64,000 nt of DNA from Nocardia asteroides. Lineage in GTDB: Bacteria; Actinomycetota; Actinomycetes; Mycobacteriales; Mycobacteriaceae. The notes beneath the pieces were generated by a model. The model worked only from the letters and a program-made list of their open reading frames with translations. It had not been told where the DNA came from and did no database searches. Positions 29,118-37,599 of this stretch are shown in pieces. The position numbers and the translations under genes were made by a program. The DNA is taken from positions 2,842,001-2,906,000 of the forward strand of contig NZ_LR134352.1 of assembly GCF_900637185.1 (NCBI RefSeq). Reading direction: 5' to 3'. Position 1 is the stretch's first letter. Each line of letters begins with the position of its first letter.

Positions 29118-30629
29118 CTACTCCGCGCCGATCTCCTCGATCACGGTGATCAGCGTGCGCACCGGGACGCCGGTGCCGCCCTTGCCGATGTAGCCGAACG
29201 GGCCGCCGGTGTTGTAGGCCGGACCGGCCACGTCCAGGTGCGCCCACTGCACGCCCTCGGGCACGAACTCCTTGAGGAACAGCGCGGCCGAGAGCATGCC
29301 GCCCCAGCGATGCGCGGCCACATTGGCCAGGTCGGCGACCTTGGAGTTGAGGTCGGCGCGCAGTTCGGCGGGCAGCGGCATGGCCCAGCCGTTCTCGCCG
29401 ACCGCGCGCGACACCGCCGCCACGCGATCGCGGAACTCCTCGGTGCCCATCACGCCCGGGGTGCGCGTGCCGAGGGCGACCATCTGGGCGCCGGTCAGGG
29501 TGGCGACGTCGATCAGGTAGTCGGGCTCGTCCTCGGCGGCGCGCACGATCGCGTCGGCCAGGATGAGCCTGCCCTCGGCGTCGGTGTTGAGCACCTCGAC
29601 GGTGGTGCCGCCGTACTGGGTGAGCACGTCGCCGGGGCGCTGCGCGGTTGCCGATGGCATGTTCTCGGCCATCGGCACCGTCGCGGTGACGGTGACCGGC
29701 AGGCCCAGGCGCGCGGCCAGGAGGGTGGTCGCGATGACCGCCGCGGCGCCCGCCATGTCGGAGGTCATGTTCTCCATGTTGGCGGCGGGCTTGATCGAGA
29801 TGCCGCCGGTGTCGAAGGTGATGCCCTTGCCGACGAGGGCGATCTTCTTCGGGCCGCCCGCGTAGGTGATGCGCACCAGCCGCGGCGGCCGGGCCGAGCC
29901 CTGGCCGACGCCGATGATGCCGCCGTAGCCGCCCGCGGCCAGCGCGTCCTCGTCGAGCACCTCGACCTCGAGGCCCGCGCCCTCGGCGAGCAGCCGGGCG
30001 CGGTCGGCGAATTCGGCCGGGTACAGCGCGCTCGGCGGGGTGTTCACGAAATCGCGTGCGGTGGCGACCGCTTCGGCGACCAGTTGCGCCCGCAGTAGCT
30101 CCAGCACCCCGAACTCGGGTTCGGGCACCAGCAGTTCCACCCGCAGCACCGGCTGCTCGTCCGGCTTCGGCGCGCTCTTGGCCGACTTGAACGTGGTGAA
30201 GGTGTAGGCGCCGAGGTAGAAGCCCTCGGCCGCGGCGGCCAGGTCGACACCGGACAGCGTGGTCGCGACGAGTTCGGTGCCGCTGAGCGCGCGCCCGGCC
30301 ACGCCCGCGCTGCGGCGGACCTGCTCGGCGTCGATCTTCTCGGCCGCGCCGAGGCCGACGGCGAGCACGCTGGTCACCTCGGCCAGCCCGGCCGGGGCGG
30401 GTACCCGGGTGAGTTCCTCGGGCTTGCCTTTCGCGCCGACCGCGCCGAGGGCATCCAGCAGTTCCGCGCGAACCTCGGCGGTGAGCACGTCGCCGAACAG
30501 GTCGGCGGGGACGATGGCCGGTCCGTTCTCCGAAGAGGTCAAGCCGATCACCAGTACATCGGTGTCCGGGCTGATGGTTTCGATGCGTGCCAGTTCCGGT
30601 CCGAGTGAACGATCTGCAACAGCTGTCAT
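29118..30629 (-). CDS. pepA: Leucyl aminopeptidase (M17)
   Basis: The 503-residue enzyme removes N-terminal residues from peptides using two metal ions. It has the M17 catalytic core [19 protein letters not shown] and the signature Asn-Thr-Asp-Ala-Glu-Gly-Arg-Leu. TAACCT (minus strand 30641-30636) is six bases upstream of the ATG at 30629, suggesting a leaderless start; a GTG two codons upstream is the alternative. The gene is at the boundary between conserved core genes and the accessory block that follows. Confidence 0.95.
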
Positions 30630-30712
30630 TGCCACAGGTTATTCGGTCGCCGTCGGGTGCCGCATCGCGACGTGGTCCAGCGGCGGCGCGCGGCGAAAAT
30701 GCTGGCAATTAC

Positions 30713-30741
30713 TGGACAATGCTGGAACCGCTGAATACGCT
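30713..30741 (+). promoter_or_regulatory. Promoter of the helicase-nuclease operon, leaderless
   Basis: TGGACA (30713-30718), a 17-base spacer and TACGCT (30736-30741) end seven bases before a GTG at 30749. The in-frame ATG at 30719 lies inside the spacer and so cannot be the start if this promoter is used. Confidence 0.7.
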
Positions 30742-30748
30742 CACGCTC

Positions 30749-31540
30749 GTGACGGACTCGGCCGAGGAGCTGGAGGCGCGCATCGCCGAGCTGCGGGCCG
30801 AGGTGCGCCGCGCCGCCGCGTCCGGTGACCGGGCCACCGCCCGGCAACTGCGGGCCGACCTGCGCAAGGCCGAGATCGCCTGGGACGCGGTGGTACTCGG
30901 CGCGATTCCGGACGAGCCCGAGCGCGTCGAGCCGCCCGCGGTGCCCGTGCGCGAACACGTGCACCGGGCGCTGACGCTGCTGTCGGTGCCGTCGTCGCCG
31001 AAGCTGGTCCTCACCGTGCACGAGGCGTTCTTCTCCGGCGAACTGGTCGCCGCCCGGCTGACCAGCCTGCGCCGCGACGAGGAACGCTCCTTCCGGTCCG
31101 CGCCCTACGCGCGTCCCTACTACCTGTGCGCCGCGCTCACCACCGACCTGCTCGCGCCGGCGCGCGGGGTGATGGCGGTGAGTTCCTGGCCGCTGCACCA
31201 GCGGATGGTCGGCCCGCTGAGCCCGCGGGTGGACCTGCTGACCTCGGCCATCCGTCTGGCCGAACATCTTTCGGCCCAGCCTGCCGCGCAACCGGCGGGC
31301 AGGCGCGTACTGTGGCGGCTCGCCGTGTCGATCCCGGGCGTGACCGGCGCGCCCGACGCGCTCGACCCGGCGGCGGTGATCGAGGCCGCCCGGCGCGAAC
31401 TGGCGGTGCACGAGGACGCGGACGCACGGCAGCGGCGCTCGGCCGCGCGCCGGGCGGCCGAGCAGCTGGCCGACCCGGCCGCGCAACTCTTCGGGGTGCG
31501 GCTCGGGGTGGCCGACCGGCGACGAATCGAGGTGAAATGA
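30749..31540 (+). CDS. Operon protein 1: coiled-coil and winged-helix-like protein, 263 aa
   Basis: The first ~50 residues form a charged coiled coil (Glu-Leu-Glu-Ala-Arg-Ile-Ala-Glu-Leu-Arg repeats). A central region (about 75-165) may be a winged helix, with Pro-Lys-Leu-Val-Leu-Thr-Val-His-Glu-Ala and Arg-Pro-Tyr-Tyr-Leu-Cys-Ala-Ala-Leu. The C-terminal part is again helical and Arg-rich. No catalytic motif is seen. The stop overlaps the start of the nuclease gene by four bases. It is the first of four overlapping genes and may act as DNA-binding or regulatory subunit. Its GTG start follows from the promoter. Confidence 0.75.
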   Translation: MTDSAEELEARIAELRAEVRRAAASGDRATARQLRADLRKAEIAWDAVVLGAIPDEPERVEPPAVPVREHVHRALTLLSVPSSPKLVLTVHEAFFSGELVAARLTSLRRDEERSFRSAPYARPYYLCAALTTDLLAPARGVMAVSSWPLHQRMVGPLSPRVDLLTSAIRLAEHLSAQPAAQPAGRRVLWRLAVSIPGVTGAPDALDPAAVIEAARRELAVHEDADARQRRSAARRAAEQLADPAAQLFGVRLGVADRRRIEVK

Positions 31541-32622
31541 GCACTCTCGCAGCACAGTTGGACCAGTTGCGCGGCGGAACGCCCGCGACCAGGCACAATG
31601 CCCGCACCATCGCCGCGCTCACAGCCAATCCCGGCTGCGCCCGGCGCGCCCTGCTCGACGCGGCCGCGGTGGACAAGACCGTGATCGCCCGATCACTGGG
31701 CTTTCCACCGCAGTTCGGTCAGTCGCAGTTCGCCATCACCCGTGGCAACGCCTTCGAATCGATGGTGAAGGCCAACGGGTGCGCCGAGCTGCTGGCCCTG
31801 CTGCGCGACACCCTCGGCCTCACCATTCCCGAAGTGGCTTATCACGACCTGAACTCGGTGGGCGAGAACACCGGCAACGCGGTGCGCTATCAGCGCACCA
31901 AGCAGCTGCTGAAGTCCACCATCGACGCCGGGGACGGCACCCTGTTCGACCATCCGATGCTGCGCCTCGACATCGCGGGCGCCACCGCCTATCTGGAACC
32001 GGACGTGGTGGCCGTACAGCTCGACGGCAAGTTCCACGTGGTGGAGATCAAGGCGTTCCCGGTGATCGACGGACAGGCCGATCCCGCGCAGGTGGCGGCC
32101 GCGGCCCGGCAGTCGGCGGTGTACGTGATCGCCCTGCGCGAGTTGATGTCCGAGATCGGGGAGTCACCGGAGCTGGTGTCGCACAACACGATCCTGGTGT
32201 GCGCCAAGGACTTCAGCAACCGGCCCACCGCCACCCTGGTGGACCTGCGCAAGCAGCTGGCCGTGGTCTCGCGGCAGCTGACCAGGCTCACCGCCGTGCC
32301 CGAGCTGCTCGAGCAGCTGCCGCCAGAGGCCACGTTCGCGCCGGGGGAGGGGCTGGAGAAGACCATCGCGGCGATCCAGGCCCGCTACGCCCCGGAGTGC
32401 ATGTCCAGCTGCGAGCTGGCCTTCGTCTGCCGGGACGAGGCCAGGACCTGCGGTTCGGTGGACGCGCTCGGCCGTGGCGTGTGCGACGAGATGGGCGGCA
32501 TCGACACCATCGACACCGTGCTCGGCCTGGCCGACGGCACCCTGGAACCCGGCCCCGAGCACGCCGACATCACCGCCCTGCTGCGCACCGCGCACCGCCT
32601 GCGGCTGGAGATCGCCGGATGA
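31537..32622 (+). CDS. Operon protein 2: RecB/Cas4-like PD-(D/E)XK nuclease with cysteine cluster
   Basis: The 361-residue protein has the nuclease signature Glu154-Pro-Asp156 followed by Glu170-Ile-Lys172, plus an upstream Gly-Asn-Ala-Phe-Glu74. Cys34 near the N-terminus and Cys288, Cys292, Cys298, Cys305 and Cys316 near the C-terminus resemble the split iron-sulphur cluster of Cas4, AddB and related nucleases. It likely cuts DNA, probably single-stranded ends. Its ATG overlaps the preceding stop, and its stop overlaps the next start, so it belongs with the helicase gene downstream. It is not adjacent to any CRISPR array. Confidence 0.8.
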   Translation: MSTLAAQLDQLRGGTPATRHNARTIAALTANPGCARRALLDAAAVDKTVIARSLGFPPQFGQSQFAITRGNAFESMVKANGCAELLALLRDTLGLTIPEVAYHDLNSVGENTGNAVRYQRTKQLLKSTIDAGDGTLFDHPMLRLDIAGATAYLEPDVVAVQLDGKFHVVEIKAFPVIDGQADPAQVAAAARQSAVYVIALRELMSEIGESPELVSHNTILVCAKDFSNRPTATLVDLRKQLAVVSRQLTRLTAVPELLEQLPPEATFAPGEGLEKTIAAIQARYAPECMSSCELAFVCRDEARTCGSVDALGRGVCDEMGGIDTIDTVLGLADGTLEPGPEHADITALLRTAHRLRLEIAG

Positions 32623-34097
32623 GCGTGCTGTCGGCGCTGGCCAAGGCCCAGGCGGTCCGGGCGGGACGCGCGCAACCCACCGCGGCGGTGCGGCACGTGC
32701 ATCTGGCCGATCGGCCGCTGGTCGCGGTGCCGTTGCGGCTGGCCGGGGAGGCGGCGGCGCCACTGGCGATCATGATCGGCACCGCGCGCGGCGACCAGAA
32801 CGTGCTGATCGTGCCGCAGCCGCGCGACCGGGTGCTGCGCCTGCGCTTCGTCGAGCAGCTGGCCGACGTGGTGCTGCCCTATCTGGCCTCGTTCCTGACC
32901 GAGAACGAGGAACTCACCAGCAAGTCCGGCGAGACCTACACCCGCTGCCTGGACGCGCCCCAGCTGTGGACGCCGAACGAGGGCGGGGTCAACTTCCTGA
33001 AACTGCTCGGCCGCTCGGTGCGGTTCCATCGCGTCGACGGCGAGAACCCCGTGCCCGCCGCCATCCCGCTGCTGGGCCGCTGGCTGACCTGGTTCGGCGA
33101 ACGCGCCGAACATCCCGGGTCGGCGGTGCTGCCCGCGATGACCTCGGTGCTGTCGGCGCACTGGGCCTCGGGTCAATCCGGGCTGGAGGACGGCAATCTC
33201 GCGGCCCTGCTCGGCTGGATCGACCCGCCCGCCGGGCTCACCGGCGCGCAGGCCGCCGCCCTCGCCGAGGACCCGCTGCTGTCCCCGCCCGCGGGCCCCA
33301 CCACCGATCCCGGTTTCGACAACGAGGAACTCGCGCCGCTGATCGCCGCCTACAACGCCGCCACCGACGACACCGGCCGCTCGGTGGCCGCCGAACGGCT
33401 GGAACGGTCGTTGCGCGCCCAGCTCGAACCCACCTGGCAGCTGATGTGGCAGGCGCTCGGGTTGCTGCGCGCGCTGCCGCCGGGCGCCAGCGTGGAGAGC
33501 CGGTGGACCGACGACCGCGGCGCGTTCTCCTACTTCGCCGAGGAGGTCGCGGAGGGGACGCCGCAGGCGCGCCGCGATCCGGCCGTGCGCGCGGTGCGCA
33601 GGCTGTTGCAGCGCGAGCGGGCGCTGGAGGCGCTGCAGGCCCAGTGCGCGTTCGACGATCCGCTGCGCATGCTCGAGCACCGGGTGGTGGGCGCGGCCTT
33701 CCGCGGCACCGTCGTGCACAGCGAACCCGATCGCGTCGACCGCTCGGGCGCGCGCCCGAAACTGCGCCCGCACATCCACATCCGCACCACCGACCCGTTC
33801 ACCGCGGTCCTCGGTGAGGAGCTGACCTGCGTCGAACGGCCCAAGCAGAGCGGGGTGGTGGTCGAGATCGAGGGCGACACGCTGGTGCTCGAACTCTCGG
33901 GCGGCATGGGCCGCAAGCTGATTCCCGAACCCGGCAGCGTCCCCGGCACCGACGACGAGCTGGGCTTCGCCCGCTTCTCGCCCACGCCGTTCAACGGGCA
34001 GCTGAATCTGCCCGCGCGCGAGGAAACGCCGTGGACCCACGGCGGCCCGCCGCCGGAATGGACGCCGGAGACCGACGAGACGGAGGACCCGCGGTGA
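32619..34097 (+). CDS. Operon protein 3: unknown 492-aa protein
   Basis: I do not recognise the family. The protein is soluble. The N-terminal ~110 residues contain a beta-rich domain (Pro-Leu-Val-Ala-Val-Pro-Leu-Arg-Leu-Ala) and a segment Glu-Leu-Thr-Ser-Lys-Ser-Gly-Glu-Thr-Tyr-Thr-Arg. The middle is helical, and the C-terminal ~110 residues have a beta-barrel-like pattern (Val-Val-Val-Glu-Ile-Glu-Gly-Asp-Thr-Leu-Val-Leu) ending in an acidic tail. Four-base overlaps at both ends (ATGA and GTGA) tie it to the nuclease and helicase genes. It could be a bridging or targeting subunit. Confidence 0.75.
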   Translation: MSVLSALAKAQAVRAGRAQPTAAVRHVHLADRPLVAVPLRLAGEAAAPLAIMIGTARGDQNVLIVPQPRDRVLRLRFVEQLADVVLPYLASFLTENEELTSKSGETYTRCLDAPQLWTPNEGGVNFLKLLGRSVRFHRVDGENPVPAAIPLLGRWLTWFGERAEHPGSAVLPAMTSVLSAHWASGQSGLEDGNLAALLGWIDPPAGLTGAQAAALAEDPLLSPPAGPTTDPGFDNEELAPLIAAYNAATDDTGRSVAAERLERSLRAQLEPTWQLMWQALGLLRALPPGASVESRWTDDRGAFSYFAEEVAEGTPQARRDPAVRAVRRLLQRERALEALQAQCAFDDPLRMLEHRVVGAAFRGTVVHSEPDRVDRSGARPKLRPHIHIRTTDPFTAVLGEELTCVERPKQSGVVVEIEGDTLVLELSGGMGRKLIPEPGSVPGTDDELGFARFSPTPFNGQLNLPAREETPWTHGGPPPEWTPETDETEDPR

Positions 34098-35398
34098 CCA
34101 CTCCGGACGAGGCTGTCGCCGGCATCCTCACCGACCTGCGCGACGCGAGCCACCGCGCCATCGTGGTCGACTCACCGCCCGGCGCGGGCAAGTCCACGCT
34201 GGTCGTGCGCGCCGCCCGTCAGCTCGCCGAGGACGACGACCAGCGGATGATCGTGGCCCAGACCAACGAGCAGGTCGACGACCTCATCGATCGGCTGGCC
34301 GGCGCCGACCCCGCGCTGCGGATCGGGCGCCTGTCCAGCGCCGCCTACGTGACCAGCGAGCGGGTCGACCAGCACGCCAACGTGCGGGTCGCGACGAAAC
34401 CCGCCGACCTGGCCGACCGCGCGATCGTCATCGGGACCGCGGCCAAATGGGCCACCGTCACCGACGGCAGCTGGTCGCACGCCATCATCGACGAGGCCTA
34501 CCAGATGCGCTCGGACATGTTGCTGCGCATCGCGAACCGGTTCGACCGTGGTCTGTTCGTGGGTGATCCCGGGCAGCTCGACCCGTTCGCCACCGTGGAG
34601 ACCGCGCGCTGGGCCGGGCTCACCTGGGACCCGACGATGAGCGCGGTGAGCGTGATGCTGGCCAACAACACCGGCATCCCGATCCACCGGCTGCCGGTGT
34701 CGTGGCGCCTGCCCGCCACCGCGGCGCCGGTCGTGTCGCGAGCTTTCTATCCCTTCACCGGATTCGAGTCCGGCACCGGATTCGGCGACCGCCGAATGGA
34801 ATTCACCACCCGGGGGCTCGGCGGCCCGATCGACGCGGTGCTCGAGGAAGCCGCGGGCACCGGCTGGGGCTGGTACGAACTGCCCGCCCGGCACACCCTG
34901 CGCACCGACCGGGAAGCCGTGCGAGCCCTGGCCGACATCGCCGCCCGGCTGATCGAACGCGGCGCCATCGCGCATTCCGAAGCGGGCAGCCGCCCGATCA
35001 CCGTCGACCGGGTCGCCGTCGGCACCGCGCACCGCGACCAGGCCGACGCCGTGCGTACCGCGCTGCGCGGCACCGCCGCCGAACCCGTCACCGTCGACAC
35101 CGCCAATCGCCTGCAGGGCCGCGAATACGACGTCACCCTCGTGCTGCATCCGCTCTCGGGCCGCCGCGACGCCAGCGCCTTCCATCTCGAGGCGGGCCGG
35201 CTGTGCGTGCTGGCCTCCCGGCACCGCCACGCCTGCATTCTCGTGGGGCGCGCCGGCATTCCGGAATTGCTCGACGCGCACCCGTCGGCCGAACCGGTCC
35301 ACCTCGGTGTGCCGGTGAAATTCCCTGACGGCTGGGAAGCCAATCAGTCGGTGCTGAGTCACCTGTCGAACCACCGCGTGCGGGCGATGGCGCACTGA
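34094..35398 (+). CDS. Operon protein 4: superfamily 1 helicase-like ATPase
   Basis: The 434-residue protein has a Walker A Pro-Pro-Gly-Ala-Gly-Lys33-Ser-Thr, Walker B Ile-Ile-Asp133-Glu134-Ala, motif III Gly157-Asp158-Pro-Gly-Gln161-Leu, a Trp-Arg-Leu-Pro segment and a motif V-like Leu-Gln341-Gly-Arg-Glu-Tyr-Asp-Val-Thr. These are typical of SF1 helicases (Upf1/RecD-like). It is short for the family, so accessory domains are few. The GTG overlaps the previous stop by four bases. Helicase plus Cas4-like nuclease in one transcript suggests DNA end processing or anti-phage action. Confidence 0.85.
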   Translation: MTTPDEAVAGILTDLRDASHRAIVVDSPPGAGKSTLVVRAARQLAEDDDQRMIVAQTNEQVDDLIDRLAGADPALRIGRLSSAAYVTSERVDQHANVRVATKPADLADRAIVIGTAAKWATVTDGSWSHAIIDEAYQMRSDMLLRIANRFDRGLFVGDPGQLDPFATVETARWAGLTWDPTMSAVSVMLANNTGIPIHRLPVSWRLPATAAPVVSRAFYPFTGFESGTGFGDRRMEFTTRGLGGPIDAVLEEAAGTGWGWYELPARHTLRTDREAVRALADIAARLIERGAIAHSEAGSRPITVDRVAVGTAHRDQADAVRTALRGTAAEPVTVDTANRLQGREYDVTLVLHPLSGRRDASAFHLEAGRLCVLASRHRHACILVGRAGIPELLDAHPSAEPVHLGVPVKFPDGWEANQSVLSHLSNHRVRAMAH

Positions 35399-35589
35399 GT
35401 TCCGGCGCACCGCCGGGACGCTGGGAGTTTGCTTGGTGGAAGCCCTTTTTCGGACCTCGTGCAAATCGCACGCGGGAACGACGGGTCGGTTAATCTCTCC
35501 GCGAACGACAAGCGTGCCGGATCGTCTGTTCTTCGGTGCCGGGCACGCAGCGAAGCGCCGGGGCGGCTTCGGGAGTGGAAAGATTCGGT

Positions 35590-37599
35590 GTGAAGATCAG
35601 GCGTAGCTCGGTGTTCGGCAGTTCGATGTCCGGGAAGCGCGGTGTTCGCGGCCGGGTCAGCGTGCGGACCCGACTATTGTCGATCGTTCTCATCTCCAGC
35701 GTCATCCTGCTCGCCGCCGGTGGCGGATCGGCGGTGTATCTGGTGGATTCGGCGCGGGAATCGACCGAATGGGCCGAATTGGCGGGCAGCACCACCGCGC
35801 CCGCGATTCTCATGGTGTCGGCCTTCCAGGAGGAACGCCGGTTGTCGCTGCTGCGGCTGGCCGGTGACCCGCCGTCGACACCTGCCCTGGTCTCCGCGCG
35901 CCAGCGCACCGACGAGGCGCTCGCGGCGGTGATGGCCAAGGGTGACGCCGCGCGCGAGCTCAATCCGGACGGCTCCGCCGAGGACATCGAGGGCTACAAC
36001 GCGCTGTTCGCGATGGTCCCGGCCGTGCGGGGCGGTGTGGACACCCTGCACATTCCGCCGGGCGAGGTGTTCACCTTCTTCTCCCAGGTGGTCGGCACCA
36101 TCGTCGCCGCGTCGCTGCTGGCGGCGCGAGTGGCCCCGAGCGCCAAGATCGGCATCGAACTGGTCTACGGCGCCGAGCAGCTGCGGGCCGCCGAAGCGCT
36201 CTCACAGGCCGACTCGCTCGGTTCGGTCGCGCTGACCACCGGCCGGATCACCGCGGCCGAGCTGCTCGACTTCGGCCGCCGGGTCGGCGAATTCCGCAGC
36301 GAGGTGGCCTATTCCGGCACGGTACTCAAAGGCGCCCGGCTCGCCCAGCTCCGCGATATCACCGCGGGTCCCGGGTGGCAGCAGGTGACCGCGATGCAGG
36401 ACGCGCTGCTCGATCGCGGGCCGGTCACCGGCGACCACGGCGACTCGCTGCCGGTGAGCCTGGCGGGCTGGCAGGACGCGAGCCGCCAGGTGAATCTCGC
36501 CCTGCAGAAGCTGTGGCACGACCAGAGCGGCGACGCCCACGCCCTCGCCCGCGCCCAGGGCGAGACCGAGACCCGCGACGCGCTCGTCGGCGGCGCGCTG
36601 GTGGCGCTCGTCGCGGTCGGCGCCTTCCTGGTGGCGCTGGTGCTGGCCAACCGGTTCATCGCCCGCATGCGGCGGCTGCGGCACGACACCCTGGAACTGG
36701 CCGACGAACGCATGCCCGACCTCATGCGCAGGCTCGCCGCCGGTGAGCAGGTCGAGGCGAGCGCCGAGACCTCCCGGCTCGACTTCGGCTCCGACGAACT
36801 CGGCCAGGTCGCGGACGCGTTCAACCGCGCGCACCTGGCCGCGGTCTCCGCGGCCGTCGCCGAGGCGCAGACGCGGGCCGGCATCAACACGGTGTTCCTC
36901 AATATCGCCCACCGCAGCCAGGTGGTGGTGCACCGGCAGCTGGCCCTGCTCGACCGCGCCGAACGCGACGAAGCCAACGCCGACCAGCTCGAACTGCTCT
37001 TCCAGCTCGACCATCTCGCCACCCGCGCCCGCCGCAACGCCGAGAACCTGATCATCCTCGGCGGCGAACAGCCGGGCCGGCGCTGGCGCAACCCGGTGGC
37101 GCTGCTGGAACTGGTCCGCGGCGCCATCGCCGAGAGCATGGACTACACCAGGATCCAGACCAAGCAGCTGCCGGAGGTGCGGATCGCGAGTCACGCGGTG
37201 GCCGACGTGATCCACCTGCTCGCCGAGCTGATGGACAACGCCACCGCGTTCTCCCCGCCGGAAGCGCAGGTCACCGTGTCCGGCGTGGTGGTCGGACGCG
37301 GGATCGCGGTGGAGATCATCGACCAGGGCCTGGGCATGCCGGAGCAGGAGATCGCCGCGCGCAACGCCCTGCTGGCCGATCCGCCCCAGTTCAGCGTGGC
37401 CACGCTGTCGGGCAGCTCCCGGCTGGGGCTGTTCGTCGTCGCGACACTGGCGGGCAGGCACGGCATCTCGGTGCGGCTGTCGGAATCGGTGTACGGCGGG
37501 GTGCGCGCGGTGGTGCTCATCCCGTCGGCGCTGGCCGAGGCCGCCGACCTGTCCTCGCCGATCTCCGGTCAGTGCCCGGCCGTCGCCCCGCGCGCATGA
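35590..37599 (+). CDS. Sensor-like histidine kinase of conservon type (nitrate/nitrite-sensor-like)
   Basis: The 669-residue protein has two membrane segments (about 30-52 and 332-357) flanking an extracytoplasmic ~270-residue helical domain of the nitrate/nitrite sensor-like type. A HAMP-like linker, a helical region without a clear H-box and a GHKL ATPase domain follow (Glu-Leu-Met-Asp-Asn-Ala-Thr-Ala-Phe-Ser-Pro-Pro, Asp-Gln-Gly-Leu-Gly-Met). Such proteins are CvnA in conservons. The GTG at 35590 is chosen; GTG 35536 and ATG 35626 are other options. Its stop overlaps the DUF742 start. Confidence 0.85.
   Translation: MKIRRSSVFGSSMSGKRGVRGRVSVRTRLLSIVLISSVILLAAGGGSAVYLVDSARESTEWAELAGSTTAPAILMVSAFQEERRLSLLRLAGDPPSTPALVSARQRTDEALAAVMAKGDAARELNPDGSAEDIEGYNALFAMVPAVRGGVDTLHIPPGEVFTFFSQVVGTIVAASLLAARVAPSAKIGIELVYGAEQLRAAEALSQADSLGSVALTTGRITAAELLDFGRRVGEFRSEVAYSGTVLKGARLAQLRDITAGPGWQQVTAMQDALLDRGPVTGDHGDSLPVSLAGWQDASRQVNLALQKLWHDQSGDAHALARAQGETETRDALVGGALVALVAVGAFLVALVLANRFIARMRRLRHDTLELADERMPDLMRRLAAGEQVEASAETSRLDFGSDELGQVADAFNRAHLAAVSAAVAEAQTRAGINTVFLNIAHRSQVVVHRQLALLDRAERDEANADQLELLFQLDHLATRARRNAENLIILGGEQPGRRWRNPVALLELVRGAIAESMDYTRIQTKQLPEVRIASHAVADVIHLLAELMDNATAFSPPEAQVTVSGVVVGRGIAVEIIDQGLGMPEQEIAARNALLADPPQFSVATLSGSSRLGLFVVATLAGRHGISVRLSESVYGGVRAVVLIPSALAEAADLSSPISGQCPAVAPRA

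Follow-up and report, generated by a model that had tools for sequence, protein, structure and literature searches.

A four-gene operon of Nocardia asteroides, here called A-D, has relatives in Streptomyces and Nocardia that sit next to the genes for SbcCD (Mre11-Rad50), and this linkage is the main new result of our analysis. The operon lies on the + strand at 30749-35398 of the window, a 64,000-nucleotide stretch (C1:2842001-2906000) of a single-contig genome of 6.98 Mb. Processing of DNA ends together with SbcCD is the best-supported role for its products, and we consider it somewhat probable. The four genes are:

Gene A, 30749..31540, + strand, 263 amino acids (aa): N-terminal helical hairpin and a mostly helical domain
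Gene B, 31537..32622, + strand, 361 aa: Cas4/RecB-type PD-(D/E)XK nuclease by motifs, with QxxxY and four conserved Cys
Gene C, 32619..34097, + strand, 492 aa: RNase-H-like fold at ~31-294, helices, barrel at ~350-454 and a tail at 470-477
Gene D, 34094..35398, + strand, 434 aa: superfamily 1B (SF1B) helicase motor of the Upf1/IGHMBP2/Dna2 type

Linkage of relatives to SbcCD

The Nocardia copies of B separate by score into eleven at 451-540 bits and the rest at 586 or more. The sbcD gene adjoins the operon in all 11 low-scoring, divergent copies, including loci L159 and L160, with a score cut chosen when the first sbcD linkage was already known. Loci of the window type had no SbcD in any of 33 cases, 27 of which have 4 kb or more of flank on both sides. 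Likewise, genomes G802, G817 and G840 hold both types, and SbcD lies beside the divergent copy only. In Streptomyces, A splits into two classes, one of 17 genomes scoring at least 211 bits and one of 15 genomes scoring less than 205. The first, or accessory, class was represented by all 17 genomes, G403 and two plasmids, which gave 22 loci (L139-L152 and L214-L221; two genomes contributed both ends). sbcD adjoins every one of these 22 loci and an SbcC match was found in 21; in plasmid NZ_CP027023 (L139), sbcDC is annotated in short pieces and is apparently broken. SbcD was absent from the two loci examined (L173 and L174) of the second class of 15 genomes. A scan of one genome per species with a B alignment gave the best 80 of 565 stretches with a relative, mostly from Nocardia and Actinomadura; other genera among these best 80 loci showed SbcD at one of 47 (L132, from Crossiella).

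The linked loci show two arrangements. In the first, sbcDC is divergent and upstream of A, as in the Streptomyces accessory loci and part of those from Nocardia; in the second, it is on the same strand and downstream of D, as in Nocardia L159, L160, L163 and L167 and in Crossiella. SbcCD-linked copies formed two clades, implying two changes, in a B+D tree of 70 rows, which used 15 of the 65 loci L054-L118 and dropped rows with a short B or D. We do not propose two independent origins, as a single clade was not rejected on this tree (approximately unbiased test, p 0.101). SbcD itself was found in 143 of 146 Nocardia genomes, including that of the window (at 6.58 Mb), and could therefore act in trans; of the three assemblies in which it was missed, two are under 90% complete and the third is in 1,340 contigs.

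A putative split Dna2-type enzyme

The residues named in the earlier note are all in place: Cys34, Glu154, Asp156, Glu170, Lys172 and a C-terminal Cys cluster (288, 292, 298) in B, and an intact Walker A with Lys33 in D. The B motif residues and the four Cys are kept in 159-162 of 162 aligned rows (Cys34 in 161, with one X), an alignment that includes the window and has some loci twice. The C-terminal spacing is CxxxC-x5-C, and the four Cys are probable ligands of an Fe-S cluster. B thus resembles Cas4-type Fe-S PD-(D/E)XK nucleases at the motif level only, its Pfam matches being weak. D has the key helicase-motif residues in 70 of 70 rows, matches AAA_11, AAA_12 and AAA_30 above cut-off, as an Upf1-like SF1B motor does, and has merely 29 residues before the Walker A glycine.

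With A, B and C, neither Pfam nor NCBIfam gave a match above cut-off, PADLOC gave none at all and PHROG none that was convincing, which bears out the proposal that A and C match nothing known. Gene A has 1821 homologues at E 0.001 or better, and its fold search returned helical-hairpin and bundle matches only; it is a possible DNA-binding or regulatory subunit. C ends in an invariant tail, TPWTHGGP (residues 470-477). Searches of a viral fold library with C yielded nothing at E ≤0.001, and sequence searches of the PDB with B and C yielded nothing useful. The model of C suggests an RNase-H-like domain and a barrel like one that D lacks, with moderate structural support only.

Because of these features of the C model, we lean towards B, C and D being a Dna2-type DNA-end-processing enzyme split over three proteins and acting with SbcCD. 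Dna2-type enzymes run from a nuclease through a middle part with stalk and barrel to the motor, an order that B-C-D would mirror. Dna2 and the fused TIGR03491-related nuclease-helicases likewise combine Cas4-like nuclease motifs with an Upf1-like SF1B helicase, although in a single polypeptide; B, C and D are separate proteins, with A in addition. Against the D profile, 16 long frames of 1,113-1,285 aa match in their C-terminal motor part (99.1%, E 1.1e-18); the frames were picked in the window genome and related genomes through TIGR03491 matches mostly below cut-off. The frame in the window genome, of ~1,285 codons (L197:1158-5012, ~6.42 Mb), is itself a match below cut-off. It also contains a run of near-identical TAVPGGS-type repeats. 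Neither B nor C gave a significant profile match to the 16 fused frames, and none of 361 adjacent pairs showed a fusion among A-D. Since the sequence support covers D only, the proposal draws on the motifs, the missing N-terminal part of D and the model of C, and a three-way split resembling Dna2 may hold with the moderate structural support that this model gives.

The four products, which we infer to form a complex, could then work as follows. D would translocate on single-stranded DNA as an SF1B motor; C would contribute, in trans, the parts usually found ahead of such a motor, namely the stalk and the beta-barrel (domain 1B), and would dock to its partners via the invariant tail; and B would cut the strand fed by D as a Cas4-like iron-sulphur nuclease. 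A may be an accessory DNA-binding or loading subunit, possibly acting at its own CTGG-repeat promoter (see below). SbcCD would first open or trim blocked ends, which ABCD would then resect or degrade, with SbcCD supplied by the adjacent genes in linked copies and by the chromosomal genes, in trans, in the Nocardia of the window.

Other helicase-nuclease systems fit less well. AddAB, AdnAB and RecBCD also join a helicase and a nuclease with a role at DNA ends, but they have UvrD-type SF1A motors with a nuclease in the same chain. We rejected membership of the AddAB/AdnAB group, as the models matched by D are of the Upf1/IGHMBP2 type and none is of a nuclease domain; PF12705 has four matches elsewhere in the window genome. 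In archaea, HerA-NurA is a helicase-nuclease linked to Mre11-Rad50, as are the SbcCD-linked relatives of A-D to SbcCD, although its ATPase and nuclease families differ from those of D and B. The PD-(D/E)XK, QxxxY and four-Cys pattern of B recalls Cas4, solo-Cas4 and UvrD-Cas4 pairs. Cas4-like genes paired with helicase genes have been described, and the available text of PMC5704561 names those helicases UvrD-like or YprA-like; unlike them, D is Upf1-like, and B has its own Cys spacing and no Pfam Cas4 match. We also rejected a part in CRISPR adaptation, since B lacks that match and the ten neighbouring window open reading frames scanned contain no cas family, CRISPR arrays not having been scanned for. 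Mokosh, PLuB and Gabija also combine an SF1 helicase with a nuclease, but A-C match neither a PLD nuclease nor OLD/TOPRIM (GajA), and the matches of D are weak to moderate. Wadjet is a neighbour of some relatives, and A-D match no Jet model.

The top matches of D are MkoA in PADLOC (E 4.4e-12) and a PLuB helicase-like protein in NCBIfam (E 1.2e-12, far below the cut-off of that model). They raise the prospect of an RNA-directed system, with D an RNA helicase like that of Upf1 or Mokosh and with B cutting RNA or R-loops; indeed, IGHMBP2 and Upf1 act on RNA. We regard this as improbable, in view of the Cas4/RecB DNA-nuclease motif set of B and the linkage of relatives to SbcCD and Wadjet, which act on DNA. 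A title and abstract search of the open-access literature, mostly leaving aside subscription papers and preprints, found no description of the A-D unit. A-D is a helicase-nuclease variant, nameless in the libraries searched, with two subunits of no known family.

Conservation, composition and promoter

The conserved multi-gene unit, with a nuclease that is Cas4-like in its motifs and an SF1 helicase, proposed from the window alone, stood up well: 79 of the best 80 loci hold all four genes in the order A-B-C-D. Gene A was undetected in L114, the sole exception, and A, C or D matched only partially in a few others. The 4-bp overlaps of the window, at 31537-31540, 32619-32622 and 34094-34097, are as claimed in coordinates and frames; among relatives the inferred 4-bp overlap is not general (A-B in 46 of 114 pairs, B-C in 76 of 127 and C-D in 16 of 120). 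Beyond these four, no gene family is constant: the one that comes next in frequency occurs in 31 of 81 loci, and flanks vary between clades. In the window, a divergent leucyl aminopeptidase (M17) and then 2-oxoacid dehydrogenase and lipoate genes lie upstream, and a nitrate-sensor-type histidine kinase and a GMC oxidoreductase downstream; some Nocardia loci have the same flanks, and of the 81 loci, window included, 8 hold the M17 gene and 6 the kinase gene. A family scan of ten open reading frames neighbouring the window operon found no defence or repair genes. Some relatives (L111, L176 and L177) look decayed, with a partial C match in L111 and B split in two matches in G356 and G411, and a Micromonospora locus without SbcD has a RhuM-family gene between C and D (L133:12627-13676).

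Counting the window genome, B is patchy in Nocardia (65 of 148 genomes) and occurs in 70 of 394 genomes, and 15 of 137 genera, of the window's class; phylum-wide it matched 10 of 198, nine strongly and all within that class, the tenth weakly and partially (E 5.9e-8). Streptomyces carries B in 141 of 150 genomes, and A in merely 32 of 392. Neither B nor C matched any of 50,697 phage records. A plasmid collection gave three matches each for B and C, one being an 11.85-Mb Nonomuraea record, and two Streptomyces plasmids carry relatives of the operon.

A complex of fixed composition had also been proposed. The four-gene unit is indeed conserved among the best loci, but ten core Streptomyces loci (L153-L158, L172 and L175-L177) have B-C-D with neither A nor SbcD, and the composition is therefore not fixed at four. 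We rejected a hidden A before B in core Streptomyces, since the A profile found nothing in the 13 loci scanned. In L153-L158, the place of A is taken by a PAP2 family gene (one member tested), followed by B, C and D.

The presence of A is mirrored in the region before the operon:

Promoter region, 30702..30741, + strand: three CTGG 10 bp apart (30702, 30712, 30722) and a -10-like TACGCT at 30736-30741

By eye, a TAnnnT-like box can be made out ~7-9 bp ahead of the start in relatives from several genera; where a -35 box would be expected, these have two or three CTGG motifs at a spacing of 10 bp, which we then counted. The strong leaderless promoter put forward earlier is borne out in part: a sigma-70 scan found no promoter in 30500-35700. 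GTG 30749 appears to be a better start than ATG 30719, because the latter lies inside the CTGG array and was unseen there, by eye, in close relatives. The genome of 6.98 Mb has the triple pattern at one place only. At a score of 12 or more of 14, the pattern was found in 67 of 82 loci with a stand-alone A and in 6 of 26 loci linked to SbcCD, and in none of 13 loci without A (where it was sought before B); random stretches gave 5 of 592, possibly including true sites. The two-fold pattern gave 62 of 82, 10 of 26 and none of 13, respectively, with 8 of 2,300 random stretches and one further match in the window, on the - strand. It is absent from five PAP2 gene heads of core Streptomyces. That the array accompanies A suggests that A may bind to it.

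Wadjet, chromosome ends and a possible role in defence

Of the 22 Streptomyces accessory loci, 8 have Wadjet genes downstream of D (L139, L140, L142, L150, L214, L215, L217 and L219, from seven genomes or plasmids), with JetA, JetC and JetD all within the stretch in five. Only in L142 are these genes separated from D, by a DEAD/HA helicase; in the others they are directly beside it. Two records annotate Wadjet JetD downstream of D. Nocardia L165 and L167 show weak JetC matches (25%). Other linked copies neighbour a STAND NTPase and a Mu-type transposase (L145) or a type ISP restriction-modification protein (L159). The STAND/NACHT-type NTPase, of 1,800 aa (L145:628-6030), stands beside an accessory operon near a chromosome end; neither it nor its unmatched 391-aa partner matches PADLOC.

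These neighbours, the patchy distribution in Nocardia and the two plasmid-borne relatives are what would be seen if the system were mainly immune, in which case ABCD would degrade DNA of phages or plasmids whose ends are free or blocked by protein, either by itself or once Wadjet has opened circular DNA and SbcCD has cleared the ends. We give this a substantial chance, short of even, as the window copy is flanked by housekeeping genes, phage records hold no B or C, PADLOC has no match to A, B or C, and B is near-universal in Streptomyces, which is unusual in a system devoted to defence alone. Of the earlier proposal of a DNA-processing or defence system, the first half is thus supported by the motifs and the SbcCD linkage of relatives, and the second is circumstantial. 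DNA-end processing with SbcCD was possibly co-opted for defence: the near-universal Streptomyces copy is in keeping with a housekeeping role, and a defence role is plausible for the SbcCD-linked cassettes.

The linked copies also tend to be terminal. Six Streptomyces assemblies with one or two contigs carry a linked copy, and in five of these it lies within ~25 kb of a contig end: G716 has A at 4.7 kb, G1024 has copies 6.7 kb from both ends, G403 has one within 20 kb, and G676 and G750 have copies 23-25 kb from both ends. On the linear plasmid NZ_CP108489, the operon is 10.7-15.6 kb from the end. NZ_CP027023, a record labelled circular, also carries it near the record end. In L142, the gene directly 3' of D encodes a 749-aa DEAD/HA-domain helicase by Pfam (L142:6793-9042), with relatives in L141, L146 and L151; it may be of the ttrA type of linear replicon ends, a type mentioned in the available text of PMC8743542. 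Work in linear-replicon biology, that is, telomere processing, terminal exchange or linear-plasmid transfer, would account for these positions. We find it unlikely, given that the copy in G731 is 524 kb from the end and that linked Nocardia copies in G854, G868 and G023, in one or two contigs, are at least 300 kb from a contig end. Moreover, Lamassu and Wadjet are likewise enriched at Streptomyces chromosome ends, according to the available text of PMC10482375, so a terminal position does not single out telomere work. Both of the linked SbcC proteins that we tested have matches among the LmuB and mad3 models, so some terminal 'Lamassu' calls might, speculatively, be the SbcCD-linked A-D cassette.

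More tentatively, we envisage an actinobacterial counterpart of the eukaryotic end-resection pathway of Mre11-Rad50 and Dna2, in which a Dna2-like enzyme split into three proteins, with a fourth subunit, would be core in Streptomyces and repeatedly repackaged with SbcCD and Wadjet in subtelomeric cassettes that destroy foreign DNA, Wadjet opening circles, SbcCD clearing the ends and ABCD degrading the product.

In all, nearly all sampled Streptomyces hold a predicted nuclease-helicase complex, a system in which two subunits come from no known family. The SbcCD linkage of its relatives offers a direct hypothesis for resection or degradation after Mre11-Rad50 in these bacteria, and with Wadjet close by, one may ask what clears away the DNA that it has cut. 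The enrichment of SMC-type defence at Streptomyces ends described in the available text of PMC10482375 may also be related to the subtelomeric cassettes. Through the SbcCD and Wadjet neighbours of the relatives, a role in handling broken or foreign DNA becomes testable.
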